Of a stretch of 64,000 bases of DNA, positions 18,038 to 45,716 are shown piece by piece; within the stretch, counting starts at the first letter, position 1; every line of letters starts with the position of its first letter. The position numbers were made by a program, and so were the translations under genes. Source of the stretch: Mycobacterium simiae (GTDB taxonomy: Bacteria > Actinomycetota > Actinomycetes > Mycobacteriales > Mycobacteriaceae); assembly GCF_010727605.1 (NCBI RefSeq), contig NZ_AP022568.1, positions 3,782,001 to 3,846,000 on the forward strand, written 5' to 3'. The notes below the pieces were generated by a model. The model had not been told where the DNA came from, did no database searches, and worked only from the letters and a program-made list of their open reading frames with translations.

Positions 18038-18088
18038 CGACCTAGCTTGACAGAACGGCGAACTTTCGCACCTCACGGCCTGCGCGGC

Positions 18089-20301: not shown

Positions 20302-21102
20302 CTACCGCTCGACGCCCACGGGAAGGAAGGCGAAATTGTTGACGTAGACGCCGCGGGCCACCCAGTCATCCTCGGCCCGACCCGCGTTAGCCGGATCCTG
20401 GTGCACGGCCGGGTCGAATTCCGATATCGGACGTCGATCCCCATCGAGTTCGAAGTAACCCGCGTAGCCGAGTCCGGTCAGCAACTCGGTGGCCTCGGCG
20501 ACGGCATCGGGATGGTGGCGATTTTCGGCTTCGAGCAGGATTGCCGGTCGATTGCGCGACAGCGTGTCCGCGGCGCCACGCAGCACAGCTAGTTCGTGGC
20601 CTTCCACGTCGATCTTGATGAGGCCGACGTCATCCAAAGCGAGATCGTCGAGTCTTTTGACCGGGACGTCGGTGTGGCGGATGTTGCCGTGGTTGACGTC
20701 GGTGAGTGAGTTGGCGGAGTCGATAGTGCTCCGGCCCGGCTCGGACTCGACGACCCGCATCGACACAACTCCGGTCCGGTCCGATAACGCCACAGCTTCC
20801 ACCTGGACGGCGGCGCCCACCGCACGGAACATCGCCGTCAACTCGCGGGCCTGGGTCGGTCGTGGTTCGAACGCGATCACCGATCGCGAGGCCGCCAACA
20901 TGGCAATTGTGAACTGGCCGACGTCGGCGCCGACATCCACGGAAACCCGGTTGGGATCGCACATGGACCGAGCCAACCGCAGGTCGGCGCGGGACTGGCC
21001 CAGCCGTTCCAAAATGCGGTATTTCCGACGCCAGAAGAACCGAGGTGCGACCTTTTTCGCCGCAGGGGCAAGGCGGCGTTTAGCCGAACTTGCCCCAGAC
21101 AC
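20302..21102 (-). CDS. FkbM-family methyltransferase
   Basis: A 266-residue SAM-dependent methyltransferase of the FkbM type: VDVGADVGQFTIAMLAAS (SAM motif I), VIAFEPRPTQARELTAMF, VEAVALSDRTGVVSM, and the diagnostic LIKIDVEGHELAVLRGA and AILLEAENRHHPD. These enzymes O-methylate sugars or polyketides and often occur in polysaccharide loci. The GTG at 21102 is chosen over the ATG at 21135 because AGGAGA sits 7 bases before it. It is divergent from the lipoprotein gene at 21221 and probably belongs to the polysaccharide locus. Methylation of a sugar in the polymer is inferred from location. Confidence 0.85.
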   Translation of the reverse strand: MSGASSAKRRLAPAAKKVAPRFFWRRKYRILERLGQSRADLRLARSMCDPNRVSVDVGADVGQFTIAMLAASRSVIAFEPRPTQARELTAMFRAVGAAVQVEAVALSDRTGVVSMRVVESEPGRSTIDSANSLTDVNHGNIRHTDVPVKRLDDLALDDVGLIKIDVEGHELAVLRGAADTLSRNRPAILLEAENRHHPDAVAEATELLTGLGYAGYFELDGDRRPISEFDPAVHQDPANAGRAEDDWVARGVYVNNFAFLPVGVER

Positions 21103-21220
21103 TATGTTGTCTCCTGCCTGAATTAACGGAGCCATCAGCCTAGTTGATGGCCGGTGTGCCGGCTGCTACCTAGCCAGCCCACCAAGCATTGCCATACGGC
21201 GGGATCTAGCGTTGGTCGTG

Positions 21221-22777
21221 ATGATGGGAACATGCAGCAAGTTCGGCTTGGTCGCTGTGGGGTGTACAGCGTTGTTGTTGAATGGCTGCGCCAAACACAG
21301 CGATCCCGGTCCGTTGTCCGCCATAGTCAGCCCCGCCATCCCGCCCAGTGCCCAGGAAATCCCCAACCCGTTGCGGGGCCAGTACGAGGATCTGCTGAAT
21401 CCGCTTTTCCCGCAAGGGAATCCGGCCCAGCAGCGGTATCCGGCGTGGCCGGCGTCCTACGACGCCAGCGTGCGTATCTCGTGGCGACAATTGCAGCCCA
21501 CCGACCCCGCAACGCTACCTGGGGACTCGCCTGACGATCGCAGGTTCGACTTCAGCGCCATCGACGACACCCTCAACAAGCTGGCCAGCCGGAACATGCG
21601 GCTCAGCTTGCGCATCGTCACGTACAACTCCGACCCGCACGACACGACGATCGCGATCCCGGACTGGATGCGGCCGGCGTCGGCCAGCTACCCGGCGGTA
21701 CCGAATAATCCCGGGGCGACCCAAGTCGTGCCGAACTGGGACGACCCGCGCTACCTGGACGCTTTCGGCCGGTTGCTGGCGGCGCTGGGCCGCCGGTACG
21801 ACAGCGACGAACGGCTCAGCGTCTTCGAGTTCTCCGGCTATAACCAGTTTCGCGATCAAAGCATCAGTGCCGACTCGATCCGGCGACTGGTGACGGCCAA
21901 TGTCGAGGCCTTCCCGCATACCCAACTCGTGGTGGCGCCGCAGAACCCGGAGATCGTGCGAGCGCTGCTCGCCGACGACGTGACGAAAAGGTTGTCCGCC
22001 CCGGTGGGCATCCGCGCCGACTGCCTCGGCGCCCAATCGCCGTTACCGGGCTGGGCGGAATCCGGAGACTCCCAGTACGTCCGGAACAACGACGCGGTGG
22101 TCAACGCGCTCAAACAGCGACTGGCCTCGGCGCCGGTGATCACCGAATGGTGCCCGTTGCCCTCGGGAACCGACCTGAAGTCCTACTACGAACGTGGGCT
22201 GCACGACGTCGTCCGCTACCACGTGTCGATGACGGCGAGTGCCAACTTCCCGGACCGGGACTCGACCGCGGCGATGGACCCCAAGTTGTATGCGCTGTGG
22301 GCCCAGGCCAACACTGCTGCCGGGTACCGATATTCGGTGCAGGCGCGGCCGGGATCGCAGTCGATTCAGGGCAAGGTCGCGTCGATCTCGGTGGAGTGGA
22401 CGAATTACGGGTCGGCGGGGACCACCGAGCAGTGGACACCCGGCTACAAGCTGGTGGACGCCTCGGGTGCGGTGGTGCGCACGCTGCCGGCGACGGTCAA
22501 CCTCAAGACGTTGGTCCACGACGATTCGAGCCCGTCGCGCGAGGAGGCGGTGCCGACGACGTTCAGCGAGACGGTGCACGTCGACTTGGCCGGATTGGCG
22601 CCGGGGCACTACACGCTGCGCGCCACCGTGGACTGGCAACAGCACAAATCGGGCGCCTCGCACGTGGTGAACTACGGACCGATGGCGCTGGCCCGGGACG
22701 GGCGCGACGGGTCCGGTGCGTATCCGATTGCGACGCTTGACATTCCGCGTTCCAGCCTGGCCGCTACCGGCGGCTGA
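21221..22777 (+). CDS. Surface lipoprotein with glycosidase-like (DUF4832/DUF4874-type) domain, copy A
   Basis: A 518-residue lipoprotein: a signal peptide ending in lipobox LLNGC, then a predicted TIM-barrel-like domain. Features shared with DUF4832/DUF4874 proteins are NPLRGQYEDL near the mature N-terminus, DASVRISWRQLQP, RFDFSAIDDTLNKLASRNMRL and a C-terminal beta-sandwich (ISVEWTNYGSAGTTEQW, LAGLAPGHYTLRATVDW). It is a close paralogue of the product at 24747; relative to that copy it lacks about 30 residues between FEFSGY and QFRDQS and shortens a Cys-Cys loop. The pair flank a cyclic-di-GMP enzyme at the start of a polysaccharide locus, suggesting a cell-surface hydrolase or glycan-binding role. 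Catalytic residues were not identified. Confidence 0.7.
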   Translation: MMGTCSKFGLVAVGCTALLLNGCAKHSDPGPLSAIVSPAIPPSAQEIPNPLRGQYEDLLNPLFPQGNPAQQRYPAWPASYDASVRISWRQLQPTDPATLPGDSPDDRRFDFSAIDDTLNKLASRNMRLSLRIVTYNSDPHDTTIAIPDWMRPASASYPAVPNNPGATQVVPNWDDPRYLDAFGRLLAALGRRYDSDERLSVFEFSGYNQFRDQSISADSIRRLVTANVEAFPHTQLVVAPQNPEIVRALLADDVTKRLSAPVGIRADCLGAQSPLPGWAESGDSQYVRNNDAVVNALKQRLASAPVITEWCPLPSGTDLKSYYERGLHDVVRYHVSMTASANFPDRDSTAAMDPKLYALWAQANTAAGYRYSVQARPGSQSIQGKVASISVEWTNYGSAGTTEQWTPGYKLVDASGAVVRTLPATVNLKTLVHDDSSPSREEAVPTTFSETVHVDLAGLAPGHYTLRATVDWQQHKSGASHVVNYGPMALARDGRDGSGAYPIATLDIPRSSLAATGG

Positions 22778-22918
22778 CCCAGCCCACGGTGGGCCCGTCG
22801 GCGCTGGTCATAGCAAAAAAGCGGCGCTCGACCGTGATACCGTCTTCTCACCCATACCATCGGTGACCTGCCGAATCTGGCCTTTCGGCCGGGACATGCG
22901 CCCACCCCGGAGGACCCC

Positions 22919-24736
22919 ATGCCGCGCAGCCTGGACCTGGTCCTGACCTCGGTCGCCGCGCAGCTGATGGAGGCCACCGCGGCCACCGCGACGCAGGTGA
23001 GTCAAAACGTTCTCGAGCAGCTGGTCGAGCAGTTCGACGTGGACGGCAGCTTTTTGCGGCACCGCGACGAGCCGTCCGGGCAATCGGTGCTGGTTGCGCA
23101 GTGGCCGCCGCGACTCGAGGTGGGCGATTCGCTGCTCGCCGAGTGCGAGCAGGACCGCAAGCCGGTAGTGCTATCGGCGCCCAGGTCCCGCTGGAGCCGG
23201 CTGACCGGAACCTCACCGGCCCGCATACCGTCGATCGCCGCCGCGCCCCTGGTGTCGGGTGAGGTCACCACCGGTGTGCTCGGCTTCGTCAGGTTCGGCG
23301 CGCGCAACTGGAAGCAGGCCGAGATCAACCGGCTCGAGGCCGTTGCCGCGCTGTTCGCGCAACTGCAGGCCCGCATCGCCGCCGAGGAGAAGCTGCGCTA
23401 CCTCGCCGAGCATGACGACCTGACGGGTCTGTACAACCGCCGGGCGCTGGTCGCGCACCTGTCCGATCGACTGGCGTCCGGGAAGCCGGGGCCGGTCGCG
23501 GTGCTCTACCTCGACCTCGACCGGCTGAAGCCGATCAACGACTACCTGGGTCACACCGCCGGTGACTGGTTCATCAGGGTCTTCGCCGAACGTATCCAGG
23601 AGTGCGCCGGTGATCAGGCCATGATCGCGCGGCTGGGTGGCGACGAGTTCGTCGTCGTACCCGCGCAGTCGATGGCACCGGAAACCGCGGAGTCGTTCGC
23701 GCGTCGGTTGGTGCGGCTGCTGTGCGAGCGGCTGGCCATCGGCGGCCACATGATCAGCCGCACCGTCAGCATCGGGCTGGCGATCGGGATGCCCGAGCGC
23801 GACAACTGCACCGCACTGCTGCGCCGCGCCGACGAGGCGGTGCTGACCGCCAAGCGCGCGGGCGGCAACCAGGTCGCGGTCTTCACCGACGATATGTCGT
23901 TGAAAAGCGCCTTCCGTAACGACATCGAGTTGCATCTGCAAGGCGACATCGGCAGCGAGGCACTGCTGCTGCACTATCTGCCGGAGGTCGACCTGTGGAC
24001 CGGCGCGGTGGTGGCCGCCGAGGCGCTGGTCCGGTGGCGGCATCCGATCTGGGGCATGCTGCTGCCCGACTCATTCATCGGCGTGGCCGAATCCACCAAC
24101 CTGGCCAGTGAGCTCGGCCGCTGGGTGATGCGTACCGCCTGCGCGGAATTCAGCCGTTGGCGGGCCAACGGCGTTGGCCTGGGCGCCACCTTGCGCGTGA
24201 ACGTGTCTCCCGTGCAGCTCATCACCCCGGGCTTCGTGCGCAGCGTCGCCGACACCATCGACGAGTTCGGCATCGACGCCGCGTCGGTGTGCCTGGAAAT
24301 CACCGAGCGCGCCGTCGTGCACGACATCGACGCCACGTTCAACACCCTGGCCGAGCTCAAAGAGGTCGGGGTGCAGCTGGCCATCGACGACTTCGGTACC
24401 GGGTATGCGGTGCTGTCCCACCTGAAGTCGCTTCCGGTCGACATGCTCAAAATCGACGCCGGCTTCGTACGCGACCTGGGAACCAACGCCGGCGACCTGG
24501 CCATCGTCCGTGCCATCATCGGGCTGGCCGAGGCCTTCGGCCTGCAGATCGTCGCCGAAGGCGTCGAAACGCCAACTGCGGCACTGACTTTGATGCAGCA
24601 TGGCTGTCATCGGGCGCAAGGTTTTCTGCTGTCGAAACCCGTCCCCGGTGCGGAGATGGAGGCATTGCTGGCGGCGCGCTGGATGCCGATGCCTTTCCTC
24701 GCCGATCGTGAAGCCTTGTCGCAGCGCGCGATTTAG
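22919..24736 (+). CDS. GAF-GGDEF-EAL cyclic-di-GMP synthase/phosphodiesterase (Rv1354c type)
   Basis: A 605-residue soluble protein. GAF domain about residues 10-155; GGDEF domain about 160-325 with intact LGGDEFVVV (240-244) and LDLDRLKPINDYLGH; EAL domain about 335-590 with AAEALVRWRHP (EAL at 368-370), RVNVSPVQL, CLEITER, AIDDFGTGYA, LKIDAGFV and IVAEGVET. All catalytic motifs look functional for both synthesis and hydrolysis of cyclic-di-GMP. The inhibitory RxxD I-site normally five residues before GGDEF is absent, so product feedback by that route is unlikely. It closely resembles M. tuberculosis Rv1354c in domain order and sequence but sits here between paralogous lipoprotein genes of a polysaccharide locus, implying a role in controlling the polymer. 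Confidence 0.93.
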   Translation: MPRSLDLVLTSVAAQLMEATAATATQVSQNVLEQLVEQFDVDGSFLRHRDEPSGQSVLVAQWPPRLEVGDSLLAECEQDRKPVVLSAPRSRWSRLTGTSPARIPSIAAAPLVSGEVTTGVLGFVRFGARNWKQAEINRLEAVAALFAQLQARIAAEEKLRYLAEHDDLTGLYNRRALVAHLSDRLASGKPGPVAVLYLDLDRLKPINDYLGHTAGDWFIRVFAERIQECAGDQAMIARLGGDEFVVVPAQSMAPETAESFARRLVRLLCERLAIGGHMISRTVSIGLAIGMPERDNCTALLRRADEAVLTAKRAGGNQVAVFTDDMSLKSAFRNDIELHLQGDIGSEALLLHYLPEVDLWTGAVVAAEALVRWRHPIWGMLLPDSFIGVAESTNLASELGRWVMRTACAEFSRWRANGVGLGATLRVNVSPVQLITPGFVRSVADTIDEFGIDAASVCLEITERAVVHDIDATFNTLAELKEVGVQLAIDDFGTGYAVLSHLKSLPVDMLKIDAGFVRDLGTNAGDLAIVRAIIGLAEAFGLQIVAEGVETPTAALTLMQHGCHRAQGFLLSKPVPGAEMEALLAARWMPMPFLADREALSQRAI

Positions 24737-24746
24737 TATCGCAGCG

Positions 24747-26396
24747 ATGGTCCAAATAGTGAGCAAGAGCGCGGCGGCCGCCGCGGTGTGTGTGGCGGTG
24801 GTCCTGAGCGGATGTAGCAGATCGGGCAATTCCGAACCCCTCAGTGTGATTGCCAGCCCGGCAATACCACTGAGTGTGCAAGAGGTGCCCAACCCGCTGC
24901 GCGGCCAGTATGAGGACCTCTTGCTTCCGTTGTTCCCGCAGGCGAACCCCGCGCAGCCGTACCCACCGTGGCCTGGGTCCTATGACGCGAGCCTGCGGGT
25001 GTCCTGGCGGCAATTGCAGCCCGTCGATCCGAGTACGTTGCCCTCCGATGCCCCCGACGATCGCAGATTCGACTTCAGTGTGATCGACGAAGCCCTGGAC
25101 AAACTTGCGGCCCGCAACATGCGAATGACGCTGCGGGTGGTCTCTTACAGTTCATGTTGTGACACCGTGTTCCCGAACAACACGAACATTGGTGTGCCCG
25201 ACTGGGTTCGGCCGGTGACGACGAGCTACCCGGGGCCGGAAAGGTATTGGTGGACTCCCGGCGTGACCCAGGTTGTTCCGAATTGGAACGATCCCAAGTA
25301 CCTCGATGCTTTCGGTCAGCTGTTGGCCGCATTGGGGCGCCGGTATGACGGTGACGAACGGCTCAGCGTTTTCGAGTTTTCCGGCTACGGGGATTTCAGC
25401 GAAAACCACATTGCGTATCTACGCGACACGCTGGGCGCGCCGGGGCCCTCGCCCGACGAGAGCGTCGCGAAACTTGGTTACTACAGCCAGTTTCGGGATC
25501 AGAGCATCACGACCGACTCGATTCGCCGGTTGGTTGCGGCGCACGTCAACGCCTTCCCTCGCACGCAACTGATCACGACCACACTCAATCCCGAGATCGT
25601 GCGCCAGATGCTGGCCGACGATGTAACGAAGAAGCTGTCGGCACCGGTGGGCATCCGCTCGGATTGCATCGGCGTGATAGCGCCGATGCCTGGCTGGGCC
25701 GAATTGGAGGGATCTCACTATGTCAGGGAGAAAGACCCGGTCGTCGCCCAGTTGAAGGCGCGACTGGCTACGGCGCCGGTGCTCACCGAGTGGTGCATGT
25801 TGCCCAAAGGCGGCGATCGACGGGCCTACTACGAGAAGGGTCTGCATGACGTCGTCAGGTACCACGTGTCGATGACGTCGAATTGCGACTTCGAGGACAC
25901 AAACTCGCCCGTGGCGATGGATCCAGCGCTGTACCGGGTCTGGGCGCAGTCCAATATCGCTGCCGGTTATCGCTATTCGGTCGAGGCGCGGCAGGGATCG
26001 CAATCGGTGAACGACAAGGTGGCCACCATGTCGGTGTCCTGGACGAACTACGGGTCAGCAGCGGCGACGGAGAAGTGGGTTCCTAGCTACAAGTTGGTGG
26101 ATTTCTCGGGAACGACCGTTCGCACCATTGCGGCGACGATCGATCTCAAGTCCCTGGTTCATGACGATCCCAGTGCCTCGCGTGAGGAGGCAGTCCCGGT
26201 GTCGGCCACCGAAACAGTGGCTATCGACCTGGGTGGATTGGCGCCCGGCCACTACACGCTGCGCGCTTCGGTGGATTGGCTCCAGCACAAGCCGGACGCA
26301 TCACACACGGTGAACTATCCCCCGATGCATTTGGCGCGTGACGGGCGCGATGGCTCCGGGTGGTATCCAATCGCCGCGCTCGACATACCGCGGTGA
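24747..26396 (+). CDS. Surface lipoprotein with glycosidase-like (DUF4832/DUF4874-type) domain, copy B
   Basis: A 549-residue lipoprotein beginning MVQIVSKSAAAAAVC and carrying lipobox LSGC. The mature protein aligns along its length with copy A at 21221 (shared NPLRGQYEDL, SWRQLQP, VVPNW, DERLSVFEFSGY, QFRDQSI, DSIRRLV, LHDVVRYHVSMT, LAPGHYTLRA). It keeps the longer loop DFSENHIAYLRDTLGAPGP that copy A has lost, so copy B probably reflects the ancestral length. Only 10 bp separate it from the GGDEF-EAL stop, suggesting one transcript. Function is unknown; extracellular glycan processing is an inference from fold and context. Confidence 0.72.
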   Translation: MVQIVSKSAAAAAVCVAVVLSGCSRSGNSEPLSVIASPAIPLSVQEVPNPLRGQYEDLLLPLFPQANPAQPYPPWPGSYDASLRVSWRQLQPVDPSTLPSDAPDDRRFDFSVIDEALDKLAARNMRMTLRVVSYSSCCDTVFPNNTNIGVPDWVRPVTTSYPGPERYWWTPGVTQVVPNWNDPKYLDAFGQLLAALGRRYDGDERLSVFEFSGYGDFSENHIAYLRDTLGAPGPSPDESVAKLGYYSQFRDQSITTDSIRRLVAAHVNAFPRTQLITTTLNPEIVRQMLADDVTKKLSAPVGIRSDCIGVIAPMPGWAELEGSHYVREKDPVVAQLKARLATAPVLTEWCMLPKGGDRRAYYEKGLHDVVRYHVSMTSNCDFEDTNSPVAMDPALYRVWAQSNIAAGYRYSVEARQGSQSVNDKVATMSVSWTNYGSAAATEKWVPSYKLVDFSGTTVRTIAATIDLKSLVHDDPSASREEAVPVSATETVAIDLGGLAPGHYTLRASVDWLQHKPDASHTVNYPPMHLARDGRDGSGWYPIAALDIPR

Positions 26397-26499
26397 GTAC
26401 GGTGCTGCGGACCCGCGGGTCCAGCCGGGGCAGCGACTTTGCCGAGGTCGTGGCTGTTTCGGGGTGTCGCCACGATGGTTTTCAGGTCGCGGTCGAAGG

Positions 26500-26528
26500 A
26501 CGGATTATTATGCTGCATAATAATCCGT
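26500..26528. promoter_or_regulatory. 29-bp perfect inverted repeat upstream of the wzz-wzy operon
   Basis: Arms ACGGATTATTATG and CATAATAATCCGT (13 bp each, no mismatch) flank a 3-base CTG centre. It lies 76 bp before the wzz-like ATG and just before a TTGTTG/TATCTA promoter-like pair (26532 onward). No T-run follows, so an operator is more likely than a terminator. The AT-rich core stands out from its GC-rich surroundings. Confidence 0.65.
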
Positions 26529-26604
26529 GGGTTTGTTGAGTGTGCATATCTAAGACCTAACGGATGCTATTTCGCACCGCGAGGCCCAGGAAGGTTGTCA
26601 GACG

Positions 26605-28062
26605 ATGGATTTCCGTACCTTTGTCCGGATTCTGGCCGCGCACTGGAAGCTCTCCGTTACAGCACTGCTGATGTGCACGGTCGGGGCCGCAGCCATTACC
26701 GCGTTGCAGACGAAGCACTACCAGTCGTCGACCACGGTCCTGATCTCGTTTTCCGGCGCGACCGATCTGACTGAGTTGTACAACGGGACGCTGACGGCGC
26801 AAGAACGCTTGTCGTCGTATGCGCAGATCGCCGGCGGGCGAACGGTGGCAGAACGCGCGATCAGCCAACTTCAGGTTCCGATCAAGACGGATGACCTGCT
26901 GAGTCAAACCCAGGTGAAGTACACCGCGAAATCCATGCTCTTCACGATCACGGTCAAAGACACCGATCCCAATCGCGCCGCAGCGCTGGCAGGCGCGATG
27001 GCAGATCAGTTCGCCGCGATCGTTCCCACGCTGGGTGCCGTCGGGCATCCAGGGACGACGACAACCCCCGGATCACGACCCGACACCGGTGAAACAACTC
27101 CACCCGGCGGCCAGCCGTCCGACGTGCCGGCCGTGCAACAGCCGACCGGCAAACCGTTGCCGGTAGCTCGGGCACGCATCGTCGAGCCGCCCCGGGTACC
27201 CGACCGCGCGGCGAGCCCCGTGCCGATGCGCAACATGGCGATGGGGGTGCTCGCCGGTGTGCTTTTGGCGATATTGGTTGCCCTGGTCCGCGAGAACACC
27301 GACCGCACCGTGCGCACCCGCCAGAAGCTGGAAGAACTTTCGGGTTTGCCAACGCTGGGTGAGCTGCCCGGACGGCGCGGGGGAGTCCCGCGGTTCGGCA
27401 CCGATGTCACGTTCGACGACGCCGTGCGCGATGTCGGCGTTCGGCTGCGACGAGCGATGGGACCCGACGGCCGCCGGGTGTTACTGACGGCGCCATTCGG
27501 TGGCGAAGGGACCACGACGACGGTACTGAACCTCTCCCGGGCATTCGCCGAACTCGGGGAAGATGTCCTGCTCGTCGAGGGCGACACGCGTCGGCCCGTG
27601 ATCGCGGGCCTGCTGAACGTCGAATCGGGTGAAGGGCTCGTTCACGCGTTGGCCGATCCCAGTATCGCCACCGAAGCGGTCAAGCCGACCGCGATTTCCA
27701 ACCTGTTTGTTCTTGCCGCCCGCTCCGCTCGCCGTGACGGCGGCGTGCCCTGCAGCGCGTTCCCACCAGAGGTGCTCGACAACGTCCTTGCCGATCTTTC
27801 GTCGCGCTTCAGCCGAACCGTCATCGACGGTCCGCCGGTATTGGCGACGGCGGATGCCGCTCTGCTGGCGGGTGCCGTACACGGTACCGTTCTGGTTGTC
27901 CGGGCCGGGCGCACCACCACCGACGAGCTCGTCGACGCGTTGACCGCCTTACGTGCAGTCGGTGCGCAGATCGTCGGCACCGTACTGACCGACGCCCGCC
28001 TCTCCATGCAGAGCAAGGCGGCAGCGCGCGCCTACCGGGCCAAGGTCAGGGGGACTGCTTGA
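26605..28062 (+). CDS. Wzz/tyrosine-kinase-like polysaccharide copolymerase with degenerate P-loop
   Basis: A 485-residue protein of the polysaccharide copolymerase/BY-kinase class. A Wzz domain has membrane helices at about 14-34 and 209-228 with an exported Thr/Pro-rich segment (143-200); a cytoplasmic P-loop-type domain follows. The Walker A reads GGEGTTTT (299-306), with Thr at 303 where active enzymes have the invariant Lys, and Walker A' reads VLLVEGDTRRP (Glu in place of the first Asp). Walker B, TVIDGPPV, remains. The C-terminus ends RAYRAKVRGTA with one Tyr, not a Tyr cluster. It is probably a chain-length regulator without kinase activity. The ATG is preceded by GGAAGG. It is the first gene of an operon reaching at least to the GMC gene. 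Confidence 0.85.
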   Translation: MDFRTFVRILAAHWKLSVTALLMCTVGAAAITALQTKHYQSSTTVLISFSGATDLTELYNGTLTAQERLSSYAQIAGGRTVAERAISQLQVPIKTDDLLSQTQVKYTAKSMLFTITVKDTDPNRAAALAGAMADQFAAIVPTLGAVGHPGTTTTPGSRPDTGETTPPGGQPSDVPAVQQPTGKPLPVARARIVEPPRVPDRAASPVPMRNMAMGVLAGVLLAILVALVRENTDRTVRTRQKLEELSGLPTLGELPGRRGGVPRFGTDVTFDDAVRDVGVRLRRAMGPDGRRVLLTAPFGGEGTTTTVLNLSRAFAELGEDVLLVEGDTRRPVIAGLLNVESGEGLVHALADPSIATEAVKPTAISNLFVLAARSARRDGGVPCSAFPPEVLDNVLADLSSRFSRTVIDGPPVLATADAALLAGAVHGTVLVVRAGRTTTDELVDALTALRAVGAQIVGTVLTDARLSMQSKAAARAYRAKVRGTA

Positions 28063-33199: not shown

Positions 33200-33251
33200 C
33201 ACGCCGCTTTGCGGGACCATTGGGCGATTGTTGGGAAGCGAAGGTGTCGTC

Positions 33252-34568: not shown

Positions 34569-34580
34569 GGAGAACAGGTT

Positions 34581-35534
34581 TTGAGAGCTCTGGTCACCGG
34601 CGCCGCCGGGTTTCTCGGGTCCCATCTATGTGATCGTCTTCGGCGCGACGACGTCGAGGTGATCGGAGTCGACAACTTCTTTACCGGGCGCCGTGAGAAC
34701 ATCACCCACCTGCTAGACGATCCCGGCTTCACGTTCTTTGAGCACGATGTGACGTCGCCACTCGAGGCGGCGAAAGTCCCCGGTGGGCTGGACCTCATCT
34801 TCAACATGGCTTGTCCCGGCTCACCTTTCGCTTTCCAGCGCGATCCGGTGTTCACTCTCGACACCAACTATCTCGGCACCAGGCATCTGCTCGAGCTGGC
34901 CATCGAGAAGGACGCCGTGATGGTGCAGGCATCGACCAGCGAAATTTACGGTGATCCGATCCTTCACCCCCAGCACGAGGGCTACTGGGGCAACGTCAAT
35001 TGCTTCGGCCCCCGGGCCTGCTACGACGAGGGCAAGCGCGTTGCCGAGACGTTGATGCGCGAATTTGCACGCAACTTTGGGGCCCGGATCAAGGTCGTGC
35101 GAATCTTCAACACCTACGGGCCCAGAATGGATCCCGACGACGGGCGAATCGTCTCCCAATTCATCGTTCAGGCGTTGCGCGGCGAACCGATCACCGTGTT
35201 CGGCGATGGCAGCCAGACCAGAACCTTCTGTTACGTCGATGATCTGATCGACGCATTGGTGCGGATGGCGAACAGCGACCCATCGTTCACCGGGCCGGTC
35301 AATATCGGTGGTTTAGCGGAACTGACCGTATTGGAGACCGCGCGCGTGATCAAAGATATGACTGACTCGCCTTCTCGCATTGTCTTCAAGGCGCTGCCCG
35401 AGGACGACCCGCGAAAGCGTAAGCCGGATATCACCCTCGCCACGTCAAGGCTGCGCTGGAGCCCGGTAGTGCCCTTCGAGCAAGGGGTGGCGCTCACGAT
35501 CGCCCATTTTCGATCCGCCCATTCCGTTCGATAA
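34581..35534 (+). CDS. uxs: UDP-glucuronate decarboxylase (UDP-xylose synthase)
   Basis: A 317-residue extended SDR. LVTGAAGFLGSHLCDRL binds NAD; the xylose-synthase signature NMACPGSPFAFQRDP, the SerThr pair in QASTSEIYGDP, and GPRACYDEGKRVAE with Tyr148/Lys152 are typical of UXS and distinguish it from UDP-glucose epimerases. HGRIVSQFI-like (here DGRIVSQFIVQALRG) and GDGSQTRTFCYVDDLI follow. It converts UDP-glucuronate to UDP-xylose and CO2. The start is TTG with AAGGAGA upstream. Its last 41 bp overlap a convergent glycosyltransferase gene. UDP-xylose synthesis is uncommon in mycobacteria, so the polymer probably contains xylose. Confidence 0.9.
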   Translation: MRALVTGAAGFLGSHLCDRLRRDDVEVIGVDNFFTGRRENITHLLDDPGFTFFEHDVTSPLEAAKVPGGLDLIFNMACPGSPFAFQRDPVFTLDTNYLGTRHLLELAIEKDAVMVQASTSEIYGDPILHPQHEGYWGNVNCFGPRACYDEGKRVAETLMREFARNFGARIKVVRIFNTYGPRMDPDDGRIVSQFIVQALRGEPITVFGDGSQTRTFCYVDDLIDALVRMANSDPSFTGPVNIGGLAELTVLETARVIKDMTDSPSRIVFKALPEDDPRKRKPDITLATSRLRWSPVVPFEQGVALTIAHFRSAHSVR

Positions 35535-36714
35535 TCTCCCGGTACACCGAAACGGTTTTCTCGGCAACCGATTTCGGACTGAACCGTCGTTGGGCTTGGT
35601 CGCGCACGGCGCGCTCGATGTCGCAGCGGAAGGCATCGTCGTTGAGCATTCGGCGAATGTGCGCTGCGCACGCCAGGGTGTCGCCATAGCCGAACAGCAG
35701 CGCCGTGCGGCCGTCCTCGACCATCTGCGGAATGCCACCGACCCGAGATGCGATCACGGGTAATCCGCAGGCCATGGCTTGCGCGATTGTCTGGGGCGTG
35801 GTCTCCTCGCGTGAGCCCATCAACAAGACCTGCGCGCGCGCATACTCATCCAACAACTGTTGGTGGCTGATGGCGCCGAGGATGTGGACGCGCTGCTGCA
35901 AACCGTATTCGGCTATTGCCCTGCGGATTTCGAGTTCGTTGGCCGGGTCCAGCGCGGCGCCGGCGATCCTGAATTGCAGCCGTTGCAGCCACGGTTCGTC
36001 GCCGGCGACCTCGCTGACGACCCGGCCGATCGCGCGAACGAGGTCGGGCACGCCTTTGCGCGGTACGAGCGTGCCGACGAACAGCATCCGGCCGGGCTCG
36101 GGCGCGCGGGAGATACCGAAATATTCCTCGTCGATCGGGTTTTCGATGAAGTGGGTGCGCGCCGTCAGCATCGACCCGTACGTTTGGGTCAAATAGCGCG
36201 AGATAATGATCATGTCTTGGGAGCGGTGAAACACCTCGCGTTCCATGGTGACGACACCGCGCCGTTTCACCGCCCCGATGGCATCCCATCGGGTTTTCTG
36301 GAGCAGGCGGCCTTCGATGAACAGCACGCCGTGTGGTGTGATCACGGTCGGGAACCCGCTCCCCAGCGCGCCGAGTGCGTGGCGGTCCTGGCCCTGCCCG
36401 TGGACGACGTCTGGCTTGATCGAACGGATGACGGAGATCAATCGTGGCGCGTCGCTGAGTCGCAGGGTGATTAACCGCGGCAGGCTCAGGCGCCGGACGT
36501 AGTGCACGTGCACGGCCCCGACCTGGCGATACGTCGACGTTGGATCGCTCATCGCGGCGACGACGTGGCACTCGATGTCCGGGCGGGCCGCTAGCGCATG
36601 CGCCAGGTTCTTCGTCACCGACTGCACCCCGTTCTCGGGCGTCGTCTGCTCGTCGACGGGGTAATCGCTCACCAGAGCGACCCGGAGCGGTCGCCCTGAA
36701 TCAGGTTGCACCAT
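35494..36714 (-). CDS. GT4-family glycosyltransferase
   Basis: A 406-residue GT-B enzyme. VALVSDYPVDEQTTPENGVQSVTKNLAHAL opens the acceptor domain (a Gly-containing loop typical of GT4), PDVVHGQGQDRHALGAL follows, and the donor domain has MLFVGTLVPRKGVPDLVRAI and the MGSREETTPQTIAQAMACGLPVIASRVGGIPQMVEDG signature with the conserved acidic pair. It is the last gene of a leftward group with the epimerase upstream. Sugar specificity is not predictable here. Confidence 0.87.
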   Translation of the reverse strand: MVQPDSGRPLRVALVSDYPVDEQTTPENGVQSVTKNLAHALAARPDIECHVVAAMSDPTSTYRQVGAVHVHYVRRLSLPRLITLRLSDAPRLISVIRSIKPDVVHGQGQDRHALGALGSGFPTVITPHGVLFIEGRLLQKTRWDAIGAVKRRGVVTMEREVFHRSQDMIIISRYLTQTYGSMLTARTHFIENPIDEEYFGISRAPEPGRMLFVGTLVPRKGVPDLVRAIGRVVSEVAGDEPWLQRLQFRIAGAALDPANELEIRRAIAEYGLQQRVHILGAISHQQLLDEYARAQVLLMGSREETTPQTIAQAMACGLPVIASRVGGIPQMVEDGRTALLFGYGDTLACAAHIRRMLNDDAFRCDIERAVRDQAQRRFSPKSVAEKTVSVYREIIERNGRIENGRS

Positions 36715-36732
36715 AGCGCCTTTGAGTCCGCT

Positions 36733-37671
36733 TCATAGAGAGATATCGGGGTACTCGGCGAAGATCTTGCGGGCCGTCTCTTCGCTGAACGGGTCCGCTG
36801 CGCGACCGATGGTGCGGCGCAACCGTTGCGTGTCCGGGCATAAGAACGGCCGGTCGTTGAGGCGCTGACGCTCGGGCACACACTTGAAGTCGACCTGAAA
36901 CGGCAGCACGGCCGCAATGATGTCCAACGCTTCGCGGACTTCGATCGCCTTGCCGGATCCGATGTTGAGAATCTCCAGCCCTGCCACGCTCGACATGGCG
37001 TCGACGATGACCGACCCCATCGAGTCGACGTCGACGTAGTCACGCAGTGGCCACAGATTTCCGACTTCGACTTCGCGCTTGCCCTCCACCGCGATCTGGC
37101 GGGTGACCTCGGCCAGTAGGTGAGGGTTGGTTTCGCGCGGGCCGGCGGCGTTGAACAGGCGCCCGATCAACAAACTGCGAAAGCAATCCTGGGATTCGAA
37201 GTACCGCATGCACATCTGTTCGGCCAGTAACTTGGTGTGGCCATAGACATAGACCGGCCCGGTCTGATCAACCTCTTTGTGGGGCAGGAAATTTGGCAGA
37301 TACACGTCGCCGGTAGAGGCGAAGAAAAAATCTTGCACCCCGTAGCGGCGTGAATACTCGAGTATGTTGAGTGTCCCGTTGACGTTGAGGGTGTACGCCT
37401 CGTAGATGTGCTCCTCGCACCACGGAACGAAGTGCTGCGCCGCCAAGTGGATGACTTTCTGCGGCCTGACATCTCGGAAGGTCTGGTCACAGGCGTCGGG
37501 GTCGAGGATGTCTCGGATGAGCAATGTCGGCCGGCTGGGGGCGTGCTGCCAGCGGTCTCGTCCGAGCGAAAGATTGTCGACGACAAACACGTTCTCGCCG
37601 CGGTCCAGCAAGTAGTTGACGACCGATGAGCCGATGAATCCGCAACCCCCGGTGATCAGATAATTGCCCAT
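36733..37671 (-). CDS. NAD-dependent nucleotide-sugar epimerase/dehydratase
   Basis: A 312-residue extended SDR: YLITGGCGFIGSSVVNYLL (NAD), VIHLAAQHFVPWCEEHIYEAYTLN, the SerThr site FFFASTGDVYLP, and YVYGHTKLLAEQM with the YxxxK pair, then RLFNAAGPRETNPHL. The overall pattern is that of UDP-hexose 4-epimerases or 4,6-dehydratase relatives acting on NDP-sugars. The FVPWCEEH motif is unusual and no exact subfamily is assigned. It lies 18 bp from the glycosyltransferase downstream and supplies a donor sugar for the polymer. Confidence 0.83.
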   Translation of the reverse strand: MGNYLITGGCGFIGSSVVNYLLDRGENVFVVDNLSLGRDRWQHAPSRPTLLIRDILDPDACDQTFRDVRPQKVIHLAAQHFVPWCEEHIYEAYTLNVNGTLNILEYSRRYGVQDFFFASTGDVYLPNFLPHKEVDQTGPVYVYGHTKLLAEQMCMRYFESQDCFRSLLIGRLFNAAGPRETNPHLLAEVTRQIAVEGKREVEVGNLWPLRDYVDVDSMGSVIVDAMSSVAGLEILNIGSGKAIEVREALDIIAAVLPFQVDFKCVPERQRLNDRPFLCPDTQRLRRTIGRAADPFSEETARKIFAEYPDISL

Positions 37672-37704
37672 GCTGCTATCCCATCGTGTCGAATCAAGAG
37701 CCTG

Positions 37705-38763
37705 TCAACCTCGCCCGGTCATTACCTCGGCGATGACGTCCAGGAAGCGTTCCGCAACAAGGTCCACCGCACAATGAGTTTGGTAGTGCCGGGCCGCGGT
37801 GGCTCCTTGCCGTGCCGCCGCCGCGGGGTCGGCCAGCATATCGAAGGCGGCGGCCAGGCCGGCCACATCGTCGACACCGATCGGGGGGCAGTCCGGGGGC
37901 TGGTACTCCGGTGGGCCGCCCACCGTCGAAATGATCGGCATGACGCCCAAGTGCATGGAAAGCACCTGCACGCCGCTTTGCGTGGCGCGCCGATAGTGCG
38001 CGACCGAACCCTTGGCCGCGGCCAACGTGGCGACCACATCGGAATAGCGGTAACCGCCGCGGCGCCACTGTGTGTGTTCCGGCAGGCTGTCGGCGTCCAG
38101 CGTTCCCCCGCCGATGAGGACGAGGTCGTCGCCTCGCCAGCCGCCGCCGGCCACGTGTCGCTGCCAGGCCTGCAGCACGACGTCGGCGTTCTTGTAAGGA
38201 TTGAGCCGGCCGAACATTACGAAGTTCCGGCGCCCGTCGGCGGGCACGAACGAAGGCACCCGATAGACATCCAGGTCGCTGGCCAGCGGGACCACATGAA
38301 TCGGCGTGCCGGCAACGTCACGGCGGGCCGCCACGGCGCCGGCGACGTAGTGGGAATAGGTGATGGTGGCAGCCGAGCGGGCGCCCCACCGGTCAAGCAC
38401 CGCCAGTTCGTAGGACGGCAGCGCCTCGACGGGGTCGTGCGGGCGGTCGTCGTGAATCACCTGAATCCGCGGCGTCCGCCCGGCCAGCGCGATCCAGCGC
38501 GGATCGCGGACCTGTTCGGCGATCACGACGTCGGGGCGGAACTTGCGGACCTGGCGCCATGCCTTCAGCGTGGGCGGCCAGGTCGCTGCGGTCAGAAATC
38601 GCGGTTCGAGCACCAACTCGTAGTCACGGGCGGTATCCGACTCCGGGTGTCGGTCGGACGTCACGAGCAGGACGTCGGCCCCGTGCCGGATCAGCGCTTC
38701 GGACTGCACCCGCACCGCCGGTCGTGTCCACGGCGAAAGCCAAAGCACCCGAGGGGGACTCAT
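37705..38763 (-). CDS. Glycosyltransferase (GT-B, group 1-like)
   Basis: A 352-residue protein. VLWLSPWTRPAVRVQSEALIRHGADVLLVTSD is the N-terminal Rossmann start; the donor half has FVMFGRLNPYKNADVVLQAWQRH, VAHYRRATQSGVQVLSMHLGVMPIISTVGGPPEY and a terminal helix typical of GT4 enzymes. The ATG at 38763 is chosen because upstream codons overlap the flippase gene; the flippase stop is then 13 bp upstream. Donor and acceptor are unknown. Confidence 0.82.
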   Translation of the reverse strand: MSPPRVLWLSPWTRPAVRVQSEALIRHGADVLLVTSDRHPESDTARDYELVLEPRFLTAATWPPTLKAWRQVRKFRPDVVIAEQVRDPRWIALAGRTPRIQVIHDDRPHDPVEALPSYELAVLDRWGARSAATITYSHYVAGAVAARRDVAGTPIHVVPLASDLDVYRVPSFVPADGRRNFVMFGRLNPYKNADVVLQAWQRHVAGGGWRGDDLVLIGGGTLDADSLPEHTQWRRGGYRYSDVVATLAAAKGSVAHYRRATQSGVQVLSMHLGVMPIISTVGGPPEYQPPDCPPIGVDDVAGLAAAFDMLADPAAAARQGATAARHYQTHCAVDLVAERFLDVIAEVMTGRG

Positions 38764-38776
38764 GCGGCGTTGCCGA

Positions 38777-40237
38777 TCACGACAGCTGCTTTCGGCGCAA
38801 GGACGCCAAGGAGGACCAGGTGAGCGGGCCGACGGCTGCACTGGTGGCCAGGTAGGCCGCGGCGGCGCACAGCAGAATCAAGACCACGTGTTGACCCGAG
38901 AGTAGCAGTGTCACAACGACGCTCGCGCCCGTTGGTATCAGCACCCGCAGCAAAAACATCACCGGCGTACGGTAACCGCACCTGCGGTGCAGCCACCAGC
39001 TACTGAACAACATGTTGAAAAACTCAGTGCACACCAACGCGATGCCCGGGCCGACCGCGCCCAGCCGACCGGCGAGGGCGATATTGAGCGCGACGTTGAG
39101 AACCAGCGTGGCGACCGTCAGCCACAGCAATACCTTCTGGTTGTGGCTGGCGACCAGACCCTGACCCAGGGTGCCGCCGACGAATCGAAGGGCCGCGGCG
39201 ACAAACAGCAGTGCCAGGGTCGGTGTTCCCCGGGCGACGAACGCCTGGTCTCCAAATAGCGCGATCAACTCCCTGGCCAGCAGTACGCCGATGACGGCGA
39301 CCGGGACCGCCACGAAGTACATCAATTCGACACTGCGGCGCAGGAAATCGGCGAATGCGGCGACATCTCGGGCGTAGAGTTCGGTGCCCGTTGACAGCGT
39401 CGATTTGAGGAAGACCAGCGACACCACGATGGTGTTGAACGCGATCGTCAGCGCCAGCCCGTAGGCGCCCACCTCGGTGTGGGTGCTGAGCAAGGACAAA
39501 ATCACGCCGTCGGCGCGCGTGTAGAGGATCCCGACGACCAGGAAACCGATGAGCGGCAAGGTTTCTCGCAACAGGTCGGCGGACTCACGCAGCGCGAAGA
39601 TCGGGCGCACCGAGATGTGTCGCATCGCTGCGGCGCCCTGGATGAGCAGCTGCACGGCTGGCGGAATCAGTTGAGCCACCGCGAACCAGATGACATTCGC
39701 GTGCGCCCCGACGAGGTAGGCGACCGCCGCTAGGGTGGCGAATCGGGCGGTGACATCGGAGATGGCGACCGCGGAGAAGCGGACCGTGGCTAGAAACACC
39801 GGCTCGAAGCGGGTCGTCATCGTCTGTAGCAGCAGCCCCCCGGCCAGCACCACGAGCATCACTCGTACGTCGAAGTCCCGATAGATGAGCAAGCCGGAGC
39901 CGGCCGCCAGCACCGCCAGCGGGACGCAATAGATCAGGGCCAGGCCGCTGTTGATGCGAACCAAGCGCTCCAGATCCCCGCGCCCGGAGGTCACTCGCCG
40001 CACGATCACGGTGGCCACACCGAGGTCGGCGAAGCTGTTCCACATCCCCACGAACGCCACCGCCATGGTGAGTTGGCCATAGGGTCCGGGGCCCAGGTAG
40101 CGGGCGGTCATCGCCACCGAAAACACTGACGCCAGCATCCCCAGCGCGCGGCAGACCAATTGGATAGAGAAAGCGTGAGCCACCCGACTCAGCGGCACCG
40201 AGGATACGACCGCACTGGGTGCCGTCGGCTCAGTCAT
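38777..40237 (-). CDS. Wzx-type polysaccharide flippase (MOP superfamily)
   Basis: A 486-residue membrane protein with about 12-14 helices. The N-terminal FSIQLVCRALGMLASVFSVAMTARYLGPGPYGQLTMA segment, including the YLGPxxYG motif, and the LADLGVA-like FADLGVATVIVRRV are the hallmark of Wzx/RfbX flippases that move undecaprenyl- or decaprenyl-linked repeat units across the membrane. Together with the Wzy and Wzz homologues this completes a Wzx/Wzy assembly system. It is downstream of the initiating transferase with a 6-bp gap. Confidence 0.88.
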   Translation of the reverse strand: MTEPTAPSAVVSSVPLSRVAHAFSIQLVCRALGMLASVFSVAMTARYLGPGPYGQLTMAVAFVGMWNSFADLGVATVIVRRVTSGRGDLERLVRINSGLALIYCVPLAVLAAGSGLLIYRDFDVRVMLVVLAGGLLLQTMTTRFEPVFLATVRFSAVAISDVTARFATLAAVAYLVGAHANVIWFAVAQLIPPAVQLLIQGAAAMRHISVRPIFALRESADLLRETLPLIGFLVVGILYTRADGVILSLLSTHTEVGAYGLALTIAFNTIVVSLVFLKSTLSTGTELYARDVAAFADFLRRSVELMYFVAVPVAVIGVLLARELIALFGDQAFVARGTPTLALLFVAAALRFVGGTLGQGLVASHNQKVLLWLTVATLVLNVALNIALAGRLGAVGPGIALVCTEFFNMLFSSWWLHRRCGYRTPVMFLLRVLIPTGASVVVTLLLSGQHVVLILLCAAAAYLATSAAVGPLTWSSLASLRRKQLS

Positions 40238-40243
40238 GACTCC

Positions 40244-41830
40244 CTAGTATGCGCCGTGGCTGGCGAGAACGGCCTTCACGGTCTTGGCGACGATCATCAG
40301 ATCGCCGGCCATCGACCAGTTGTCGACATAGGACAGATCCAACCGCACCGACTCTTCCCAGGACAGGTCCGACCGGCCGCTGACCTGCCACAAGCCGCTG
40401 ACGCCGGGCTTCACCAGCAGTCGACGCTTGACGTCACCGGCGTAGTTTTCCACCTCGCGGCGCAACGGCGGCCGCGGGCCGACGACACTCATGTCGCCCT
40501 TGAGCACGTTGACGAACTGGGGTAGCTCGTCGATGCTGAAGCGGCGCAGCACCCGGCCTACCGGGGTGACCCTGGGGTCCTTGCGCATCTTGAACAGCAT
40601 GCCGCCGGCGCACTCGTTCTGCGGCAACAGGTGGTCGATCTGTTGGTCGGCGCCGTCGGTCATGGTGCGGAACTTCAGCATGGTGAACGGGTTTCCGTCG
40701 ATGCCGATGCGCTCGGACCGGTAGAAGATCGGGCCGCGGCTGGTCAGCTTGACTGCGATCGCCGCGACCATTAACAGCGGCGCCGCCGCGATCAGGGCGG
40801 CCAGGGAGAACAGAAAGTCAAAGGCCTGCTTCTGAAAGCGTTGTGTCCCTTCGTATTGCGGCTTCTCGACGTGCAGCAGCGGTAACCCCGCGGTGAGCTG
40901 CAGCGTCAGCCGTGCTTCGGCGACATCCATCACCCCGGGCGACACCACAAGATCGACATCCTTGGTTTCCAACTGCCACATCAGTTCTCGGATGCCGCGG
41001 ACGCCGAAGTGCTCGGTCCGCGTTACCGCCACGGTGTCGGCGCCGCAACTGTCGATCGCGGCGATCGCGTGTCTCTCGTCGCCCAGGATCGGCACCTCGC
41101 GCCCCTGAACCGTCAGCGTGTTGCCCCGCGACGGCCCGTATCCGGGAATGCAGACACCGACGACGACGCAGCCGGCCCGGGGAGCGCGGGCGAGCTCCTG
41201 CGCGAGGTGGGAGACGGCTTGGCGGTCGCCGATCGCCAAGACCTTGGTCTGGCATTGACCGCGTGCCCGCAGGGTGCCGATATGCCGGCGCCACAGGCTG
41301 CGGCCGGTCAGCAACGCGATGGTGCCGACCGGAAGTGCGATCGCCAGATAACCGCGGGCCAGATCGACCTTGGCGAGCAGGGTGACCATAGCGATGATGC
41401 CGAACGTCCAGAACGACGCGCTGCCGATCCGCCGATACTCGTCGATGCCGGCACCGATGACTCGCGGCGACCGGGTCTGGAAGACGGCAAGAGCCGACAG
41501 CCACAGCGTCGCGAAGAGCACCGAGAACAGCGTCATGACCGGACCCGAATACGCCGACGTGCGGGCCGGGGACTCGCCGAAGCGGACGTATTGGGCCAGC
41601 ATGACCGAGGCGAACACAATCACCGAGTCGCTGACGCGCAGGCGCCCGGCGTACAGGTGTTGCCAGCGCCGCGCGGGGTCGACGCCGGGGATGGTGGGCC
41701 GCTGCGCGACGGCCGAATTGGGAATCCGGTTGCCCGGCAACGAGATCATCCCAGCCGGCTTCCGTCTAACCGGCGGCTGGTTGGGTCGGAACACCGTTGC
41801 AGACGGTGCCGGTGCTATCGGCATGATCAT
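40244..41830 (-). CDS. Initiating polyprenyl-phosphate sugar-1-phosphate transferase (WbaP/GumD/WcaJ type)
   Basis: A 528-residue polyprenyl phosphosugar transferase. The N-terminal half has about four membrane helices and a CoA-binding-like Rossmann domain (KVLAIGDRQAVSHLAQELA, GVCIPGYGPSRG); a re-entrant helix (FDFLFSLAALIAAAPLLMVAAIAVKLTSRGP) is followed by the catalytic domain with FYRSERIGIDGNPFTMLKFRTM, DELPQFVNVLKGDMSVVGPRPP and GVSGLWQVSGRSDLSWEESVRLDLSYVDNWS. It loads the first sugar phosphate (hexose, probably glucose or galactose) onto the lipid carrier and so starts the repeat unit. The acidic catalytic pair of the family is kept. Confidence 0.92.
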   Translation of the reverse strand: MIMPIAPAPSATVFRPNQPPVRRKPAGMISLPGNRIPNSAVAQRPTIPGVDPARRWQHLYAGRLRVSDSVIVFASVMLAQYVRFGESPARTSAYSGPVMTLFSVLFATLWLSALAVFQTRSPRVIGAGIDEYRRIGSASFWTFGIIAMVTLLAKVDLARGYLAIALPVGTIALLTGRSLWRRHIGTLRARGQCQTKVLAIGDRQAVSHLAQELARAPRAGCVVVGVCIPGYGPSRGNTLTVQGREVPILGDERHAIAAIDSCGADTVAVTRTEHFGVRGIRELMWQLETKDVDLVVSPGVMDVAEARLTLQLTAGLPLLHVEKPQYEGTQRFQKQAFDFLFSLAALIAAAPLLMVAAIAVKLTSRGPIFYRSERIGIDGNPFTMLKFRTMTDGADQQIDHLLPQNECAGGMLFKMRKDPRVTPVGRVLRRFSIDELPQFVNVLKGDMSVVGPRPPLRREVENYAGDVKRRLLVKPGVSGLWQVSGRSDLSWEESVRLDLSYVDNWSMAGDLMIVAKTVKAVLASHGAY

Positions 41831-41898
41831 GGCGCGGTGTCCTTAGGTAGCGCATGGCTGGTAGGTCATCCACAGAGCCGGCGCGGTGACCGCGCCGC

Positions 41899-42450
41899 TC
41901 AGCATGGTGCGACGCTCCGGATCGGCGCGGACGTCGGTGCGTACGCGGGCCAACTGGCGTCCTGTTCGGAGATGACCGTGACCGGCAGCGGCCACTCGAC
42001 TCCGAATTCGGGGTCATTCCACCGCAATCCGCGTTCATCCGACAGCGGATGCTGTCCGGAAACGTGATAGCTGACCTCGGTGTTGGCGGTCAGTGTCTGA
42101 AAGCCGTGCGCGATGTGCGGCGGCAGATACAGCGCCCGGTGGTTGTCGGCGTTGAGCTCCAACAGCACGTGATCGCCGAAGGTCTGCGACTCTGGGCGGA
42201 TGTCCACGACGGCGGCGGCGATGGCGCCGCGGGTGCACCGCACCAGCTTGGCCTCGGCGTGATAGTGCAGACCCCGCACGGTGCCGCGGGTGTAGTTGAA
42301 GTAGATGTCGGTCTGGACAGCGTGGAAGGTCAGGCCATAACGGTCGAATTCCTTGGCGCAGAACGAACGTGACGAGAAGCCGCGGTGGTCGCGTTGCGGT
42401 TCGACGTCGATGATCGTCACACCGGCGACCTTCGTTGGGGTGTACTTCAC
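41899..42450 (-). CDS. RmlC-like dTDP-4-dehydrorhamnose 3,5-epimerase family protein
   Basis: A 183-residue cupin. The family motifs are DHRGFSSRSFCAKEF, QTDIYFNYTRGTVRGLHYHAEAKLVRCTRG with catalytic His 62, and YLPPHIAHGFQTLTANTEVSYHVSGQH. The usual RGLHYQ reads RGLHYH, so the substrate may differ from rhamnose precursor (a 3-epimerase or 3,4-isomerase is possible). No rmlA, B or D gene is adjacent. It is the most upstream gene of the leftward part of the polysaccharide locus, 68 bp before the initiating transferase, with the PPE gene 24 bp upstream. Confidence 0.82.
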   Translation of the reverse strand: MKYTPTKVAGVTIIDVEPQRDHRGFSSRSFCAKEFDRYGLTFHAVQTDIYFNYTRGTVRGLHYHAEAKLVRCTRGAIAAAVVDIRPESQTFGDHVLLELNADNHRALYLPPHIAHGFQTLTANTEVSYHVSGQHPLSDERGLRWNDPEFGVEWPLPVTVISEQDASWPAYAPTSAPIRSVAPC

Positions 42451-45697: not shown

Positions 45698-45716
45698 CGA
45701 CAACGTACCGAAAGAA
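45698..45716 (+). promoter_or_regulatory. Second copy of the 19-bp TetR-region motif
   Basis: CGACAACGTACCGAAAGAA abuts the ATG of the BcsB-like gene; it matches the element at 44803-44821 in 16 of 19 positions. Directly downstream, 45719-45749 holds an imperfect dyad, CATACT(G)TTCCGG ... CCGGAAGTATG, which overlaps codons 2-12 of the gene. Confidence 0.4.

Follow-up and report, generated by a model that had tools for sequence, protein, structure and literature searches.

A predicted Wzx/Wzy-type polysaccharide locus with an exchanged core between pabB and metG of Mycobacterium simiae

Introduction

Capsule and extracellular polysaccharide loci that exchange cassettes are known from the pneumococcal cps and E. 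coli group 1 systems. Here we describe a locus of this kind from Mycobacterium simiae, lying between pabB and metG in a stretch of 64,000 nucleotides (assembly GCF_010727605.1, contig NZ_AP022568.1, positions 3,782,001 to 3,846,000; hereafter the window, whose own numbering is used throughout). Like the pneumococcal and E. coli loci it combines an initiating polyprenyl-phosphate hexose-1-phosphate transferase (PHPT), glycosyltransferases, Wzx, Wzy and Wzz with a variable sugar cassette, and exchange has occurred via conserved flanks. Unlike them, it sits in a host with a mycomembrane, no OPX/Wza exporter was found in it, its Wzz-kinase is without the P-loop lysine, and it adds a PPE protein, a BcsB-fold protein and lipoproteins with a predicted glycoside-hydrolase barrel. 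We consider it probable (roughly 0.85) that this is a functional, polymorphic locus for a Wzx/Wzy-dependent extracellular polysaccharide of capsule type, a prediction made from sequence. The kind of pathway is known and the variant is new in mycobacteria.

Mycobacterial lipooligosaccharide (LOS), glycopeptidolipid, arabinogalactan and alpha-glucan pathways also make surface carbohydrate; to our knowledge none of them is a PHPT-Wzx-Wzy-Wzz system. Elsewhere in the actinobacteria, the wps and imp clusters of Actinoplanes missouriensis are also of Wzx/Wzy type, and a cluster deletion with a phenotype has been reported; the gene sets described there differ from that of the window, and the available main text mentions neither DUF4832 nor a bacterial tyrosine kinase (BY-kinase) (PMC13390465). 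A search of the open-access literature found no description of a mycobacterial Wzx/Wzy locus; subscription papers lay mostly outside its scope, so priority is not settled by it.

Results

Annotation by open reading frame (ORF) calling and Pfam and NCBIfam scans, with several start codons chosen from overlap and context, recovered every locus gene named in a first-pass annotation of the window as an open ORF: PHPT, three GT4 glycosyltransferases, Wzx, Wzy, Wzz, sugar enzymes and two lipoproteins (Table 1). The PHPT aligns with WbaP structures. The first-pass annotation had placed the locus between pabB and metG, at 20,302 to 42,450. The interval is right and the content lies there, but an extracytoplasmic function (ECF) sigma factor and an FAD oxidoreductase come between pabB and the locus, and its end moves outwards because a PPE protein, two TetR regulators and a BcsB-fold protein recur in relatives. 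The locus therefore extends over about 20.3-47.7 kb of the pabB-metG interval.

We compared 25 loci, chosen for carrying wzy in a single-contig interval (those of genomes G139 and G077 contain runs of N). In 23, pabB and metG are both included and enclose the locus; the stretches from G122 and G192 do not reach pabB. Constant machinery surrounds a variable middle. The lipoprotein, GGDEF-EAL protein, wzz, wzy, gt3, wzx, phpt, PPE and two TetR matches occur in all 25, and the joint presence of PHPT, glycosyltransferases, Wzx, Wzy and Wzz in every one supports the earlier suggestion of a distinct Wzx/Wzy surface system. Less constant are the RmlC-like gene (23/25), the BcsB-fold gene (18/25, two of these 42% identical and placed elsewhere in the locus), fkbM (17/25) and gt1/akr/gmc (16/25), and the window's ugd-epi1-gt2-epi2 set is found in three loci. 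Gene order is largely conserved, apart from shifts and inversions of local extent: G139, G024, G115 and G137 have wzy-wzz inverted, and the lipoprotein, dgc and fkbM swap positions. The akr and gt3 genes of G038, each matched in two pieces, may be broken. When 20 representatives of the variable genes were scanned, 15 had a Pfam match, 14 of them compatible with sugar work. Their families are GT2-GT4, WecG (2), Alg14 and GT28 halves, methyltransferases (4, one a C-methyltransferase), MocA oxidoreductase, epimerase, PIG-L, polysaccharide deacetylase and hexapeptide transferase; the fifteenth is an FAD oxidoreductase. The polysaccharide deacetylase ORF cluster (c8; L101:14407-15477 and five other genomes) is present in six loci, in five of them directly after the BcsB-fold gene.

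Sequence comparison identifies the window as a mosaic, with flanks of M. montefiorense/M. ahvazicum type and a core of M. rhizamassiliense type. Its flank proteins are nearest to those of G202 (locus L033), G203 (M. montefiorense) and G003 (M. ahvazicum), with identities of 85-89% for dgc, 85-89% for phpt, 77-80% for PPE and 88-91% for the BcsB-fold protein. Its core proteins are nearest to those of G001 (M. rhizamassiliense), G148 and G002: gt1 is 81-88% identical to these core relatives versus 64-67% to the flank relatives, and wzx 89-91% versus 81%. The cross-over points of nucleotide identity, resolved in 500-base steps, are close to 24.8 and 40.2 kb. In trees of 17 loci (LG+G4), eight concatenated flank genes (3603 columns) placed the window with G202 at 100/100, whereas eight core genes (3567 columns) grouped it with G001, G148 and G002 at 100/100. 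Approximately unbiased (AU) tests on the core data rejected the flank grouping (p 2.9e-87); on the flank data they rejected the core grouping, at p 1.8e-37 when G002 was left out and 4.8e-4 when it was included. Two other loci show a similar conflict. G002 has its flank with G160, G086 and G045 and a core of the window's type, and G038 has its flank in the window's clade and its core with G053, G136, G068 and G123. Conflict in these three loci points to at least three exchanges, each of which could have run in either direction, and suggests that cassettes are exchanged as in capsule switching.

We surveyed a sample of 198 genomes from the genus to which M. rhizamassiliense belongs. At E<=1e-10 Wzy was matched in 48, of which 44 matches are strong (49-77% identity over most of the length), three weak (28-37%) and one, in G095, a 56-residue fragment; the lipoprotein was matched in 68 and metG in all 198. 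In 29 of these 48 genomes (the G095 fragment counted) wzy and metG share a contig and are no more than 60 kb apart; in 2 the distance is 65-79 kb, in 4 (three being the weak matches) the two are far apart, and in 12 they are on different contigs. In 1, metG is absent from the matches listed. The comparison of pabB-metG spacers proposed earlier thus finds the locus recurring at one site with a variable middle, and a private insertion in one species is ruled out. In G080 (L101, L102), G085 (L097-L098) and G087 (L099-L100), parts of the locus are found off this site, at a greater distance from metG or on a different contig, which suggests that it may be mobile or subject to rearrangement. A search of GTDB genomes with the Wzz-kinase, which reaches close relatives only, returned 36 loci, all from Mycobacterium, including M. 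scrofulaceum, M. nebraskense, M. colombiense, M. bohemicum, M. europaeum, M. kyorinense, M. montefiorense and M. ahvazicum. PHPT-family transferases were matched in 149/198 genomes, several with 3-5 copies; Wzx/Wzy-type synthesis may therefore be common in mycobacteria, and other undescribed loci of this type are likely in the genus. For the BcsB-fold protein alone, matches carry the names M. avium subsp. hominissuis, M. avium subsp. paratuberculosis and M. kansasii, and by its identity the window has as its closest named relatives M. ahvazicum, M. montefiorense and M. florentinum.

The Wzz-kinase departs from an ordinary BY-kinase. At the P-loop (Walker A) lysine position, where the window has Thr, 49 distinct orthologues have Thr (41), Ala (5) or Ser (3) and none has Lys, whereas the lysine is present in 12/12 paralogues (the 12 best-scoring returned as loci, in tblastn alignments). 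With these paralogues as control, the missing lysine rules out an ordinary BY-kinase. The Walker A' motif is mostly retained, and the tyrosine tail is reduced to one or two Tyr among the last 30 residues in the alignment rows examined. Since the P-loop lysine is absent, the kinase-like domain is probably not an active tyrosine kinase, and we infer that phosphorylation control has been lost or altered. The first-pass annotation had also given the locus a cyclic di-GMP (c-di-GMP) enzyme of its own, and the gene is indeed in all 25 loci, its activity being predicted: the GGDEF and EAL motifs are kept in 47/47 distinct orthologues, and the RxxD I-site pattern is missing in 46. Three locus genomes tested each have a 51-59% identical GGDEF-EAL paralogue elsewhere, distinct from the locus copy, which rules out that the latter is the usual housekeeping protein in those genomes. 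Three equal-scoring GGDEF-EAL matches were seen in G081 (the 3.3-Mb genome of L090) and may reflect a repeat or an assembly artefact.

The locus PPE is the genome's best PPE match in 5/5 locus genomes tested, scoring 662 bits against 232 in G202 and, as a partial match, 302 against 256 in G053. BcsA (TIGR03030) was not matched at E<=1e-10 in any of 16 genomes carrying the BcsB-fold gene, and 10 of 14 control genomes were matched. The window's BcsB-fold protein thus differs from the bacterial cellulose synthase BcsA-BcsB, its BcsA partner being unmatched and its gene sitting in a Wzx/Wzy locus.

Predicted structure models were assessed by VIA-align, and that of lp2 is a TIM barrel with glycoside-hydrolase relatives. 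Putative catalytic glutamates, so named from their position, stand at the ends of beta-4 (E210, 39/39 and 33/33) and beta-7 (E348, 34/39 and 29/34); lp1 is without a stretch of about 34 residues following the beta-4 glutamate. Genomes with the lipoprotein and no Wzy number 24/198, two of them with broken remnants. PHPT is unmatched in the assembly of 17 of these lipoprotein-only genomes; in the remaining 7 the lipoprotein is 40-50% identical, and in 6 of these it lies in a stretch of about 20 kb together with a wzx, in 5 also with a PHPT. Seven lipoprotein-only intervals measure 4.2-5.0 kb and contain the sigma factor, oxidoreductase and lipoprotein. No PPE is present in the maps of lipoprotein-only intervals, and GGDEF-EAL had no match at E<=1e-60 in 7/7 of the short-interval genomes. 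At one of 12 lipoprotein places (L141) none of the window's polysaccharide genes lies within 10 kb, and at L110 wzx is also absent beside the lipoprotein. Partial loci occur too: G177 retains the lipoprotein and two TetRs, G199, without Wzy, additionally dgc (80% identity), and G095 the lipoprotein, the RmlC-like gene and fragments of dgc, wzz, wzy and phpt; in two 3.3-Mb genomes a broken lipoprotein is all that remains. These states are consistent with loss from a full locus, and in single cases could be ancestral.

M. tuberculosis was said in the first-pass annotation to have almost nothing between Rv1005c and Rv1007c. This does not hold, since the N-terminal peptide of Rv1006, as printed in the available part of PMC8006519, matches members of the lipoprotein family at up to 28/36 positions. 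Rv1006 resembles the window's lipoproteins in this peptide and in following Rv1005c (pabB) in gene numbering (PMC5393005); it appears, as far as the peptide places it, to be a family member, the one related gene that M. tuberculosis keeps. The family searches returned no full-length Rv1006 sequence. Earlier lists give it as 'Unknown protein' (PMC5393005) and as 'Glycosyl transferase' (PMC3087520).

Promoter and terminator scans of 20-36 kb gave results at chance level, and Rfam (gathering scores) and tRNA scans had no match. A 13-bp perfect palindrome directly upstream of wzz (26500-26528) was rejected as a regulatory element, being absent from the homologous spacers of other loci. Beyond the locus, G+C drops to 0.55-0.62 at 57000-64000, a region that includes an MmpL gene (60350-63238) and is possibly a separate island.

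Table 1. Features of the pabB-metG interval in the window
Feature	Position	Strand	Evidence and remarks
pabB, left flank	16784..18076	-	Chorismate_bind 234 bits
ECF sigma factor, SnoaL-like C-terminus, flank (start approximate)	18089..18991	-	Sigma70_r2/r4; also in lipoprotein-only genomes
FAD/NAD(P) oxidoreductase, flank	18988..20160	-	ORF, named from sequence; position conserved among loci
FkbM-type methyltransferase (fkbM)	20302..21135	-	PF05050, TIGR01444
Lipoprotein lp1, first family copy	21221..22777	+	Lipobox; DUF4832 weak, below cut-off
GAF-GGDEF-EAL protein (dgc), predicted c-di-GMP enzyme	22919..24736	+	PF00990, PF00563
Lipoprotein lp2, predicted TIM-barrel glycoside-hydrolase fold; left edge of exchanged core	24747..26396	+	Lipobox and model
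Wzz fused to BY-kinase-like domain	26605..28062	+	PF02706 30.4 bits (cut-off 25.5), two transmembrane segments; TIGR01007 below cut-off
Wzy-type polymerase	28059..29543	+	PF04932 (Wzy_C) 41.6 bits (cut-off 31.7); ~11 hydrophobic segments
GT4 glycosyltransferase 1 (gt1)	29540..30553	+	PF13692/PF00534
Aldo/keto reductase-like (akr)	30525..31493	+	PF00248
GMC-type FAD oxidoreductase (gmc)	31523..33199	+	PF05199
UDP-glucose 6-dehydrogenase-like (ugd), cassette-specific	33252..34568	+	PF03721/PF00984/PF03720, TIGR03026
NAD-dependent epimerase/dehydratase 1 (epi1), cassette-specific	34581..35534	+	PF01370
GT4 glycosyltransferase 2 (gt2), cassette-specific	35494..36714	-	PF13692/PF13439
GalE-like epimerase 2 (epi2), cassette-specific	36733..37671	-	PF01370; TIGR01179 below cut-off
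GT4 glycosyltransferase 3 (gt3)	37705..38763	-	PF13439
Wzx flippase; right edge of exchanged core	38777..40237	-	PF01943/PF13440 over cut-off; ~11 hydrophobic segments
Initiating transferase (PHPT)	40244..41830	-	PF02397 225.7 bits; TIGR03025 422 bits (cut-off 296)
RmlC-like dTDP-sugar 3,5-epimerase	41899..42450	-	PF00908
PPE protein specific to locus	42475..43707	-	PF00823
TetR regulator 1 (true start probably within ORF)	43866..44711	+	PF00440
TetR regulator 2	44830..45549	+	PF00440
BcsB-fold membrane-anchored protein	45716..47695	+	BcsB fold recognised
metG, right flank	48222..49790	-	PF09334 364 bits
Exchanged core cassette, dgc/lp2 junction to wzx/phpt junction	~24750..40240	.	Identity cross-over and conflicting trees

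Discussion

The gene content suggests a synthesis in which every enzymatic step, the product and its attachment, and the parts played by the PPE and BcsB-fold proteins are predictions from protein families. PHPT would load hexose-1-phosphate onto polyprenyl phosphate, which in mycobacteria is decaprenyl phosphate, and the GT4 enzymes would complete a short repeat unit, probably with a uronic acid because a UDP-glucose dehydrogenase is in the locus. Wzx would then flip the unit and Wzy join units under the control of Wzz, while the barrel lipoproteins may trim or cut the polymer outside and the GGDEF-EAL protein and two TetRs may govern output. A more speculative extension, which we regard as unlikely, is a hybrid export system in which a synthase-less BcsB crown and the locus PPE replace Wza in moving the Wzy polymer out, c-di-GMP takes over from Wzz-kinase tyrosine phosphorylation, the cassette moves between species as serotypes do, and Rv1006 is the hydrolase left in the M. 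tuberculosis lineage after loss of the polymer.

Several points weigh against assigning the locus to a Wzx/Wzy pathway. The NCBIfam models for Wzx and Wzz stayed below their cut-offs and none matched Wzy, the Wzy_C family (PF04932) includes ligases and oligosaccharyltransferases as well, and the family of the OPX/Wza exporter, the Gram-negative form, was unmatched among the scanned locus ORFs. The product might alternatively be a glycolipid, either LOS-like or some other lipid-linked oligosaccharide, and the Wzy_C protein would then be a ligase; the Pfam name of PF04932 is O-antigen ligase, and mycobacteria are rich in surface glycolipids. Yet no acyltransferase or polyketide synthase gene of LOS type was seen among the scanned locus ORFs, the locus being what was searched. 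Wzz, a chain-length regulator, stands beside wzy in the 25 mapped loci, and the available text of a 2026 paper on M. marinum LOS genes is without the words Wzx, Wzy and flippase (PMC13354803). A glycolipid product therefore seems improbable to us. We are similarly sceptical of a role in glycosylating surface proteins, in which the Wzy_C protein would be a PglL-like oligosaccharyltransferase with PPE or lipoproteins as its substrates. PglL-type enzymes have PF04932 too, and the locus is linked to genes for a PPE and lipoproteins, but such a role leaves Wzz unneeded, and a polymer better suits the BcsB-fold protein and a lipoprotein that resembles a TIM-barrel hydrolase.

The mosaic, for its part, could reflect old vertical divergence with unequal rates or hidden paralogy and without any exchange, as the loci are homologous and old and gene rates differ. 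The core genes wzz (75-77% to core relatives, 74-75% to flank relatives) and wzy (67-74% and 66-67%) are nearly level and barely discriminate; metG is equally close to G001 (91%) and to the flank relatives (91-92%); and the AU groups were defined after the identity table was known and tested under a single-matrix model (LG+G4). These points tell against exchange, but the conflicting placements of the window, G002 and G038 are fully supported, nucleotide identity crosses over at both edges of the core, and the ugd-epi1-gt2-epi2 set is common only to the core partners. An origin without exchange is in our judgement very improbable indeed, and we read the core as an exchanged cassette within a polysaccharide locus.

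A 2019 review, in the part available, gives the pathway for cellulose in M. tuberculosis biofilms as unidentified, the genome seeming to be without BcsA and BcsB, and matrix polysaccharide pathways as still to be found (PMC6364259); the available text of a 2022 review adds that mannose and galactose in other mycobacterial matrices may hint at unidentified exopolysaccharides (PMC8875947). The locus supplies genes to delete in carrier species, and Rv1006, whose function has so far been unassigned, is given a family as well as a predicted fold and a likely context. Serotype-like exchange among mycobacterial species, if true, would affect typing, host interaction and our view of recombination in the genus.

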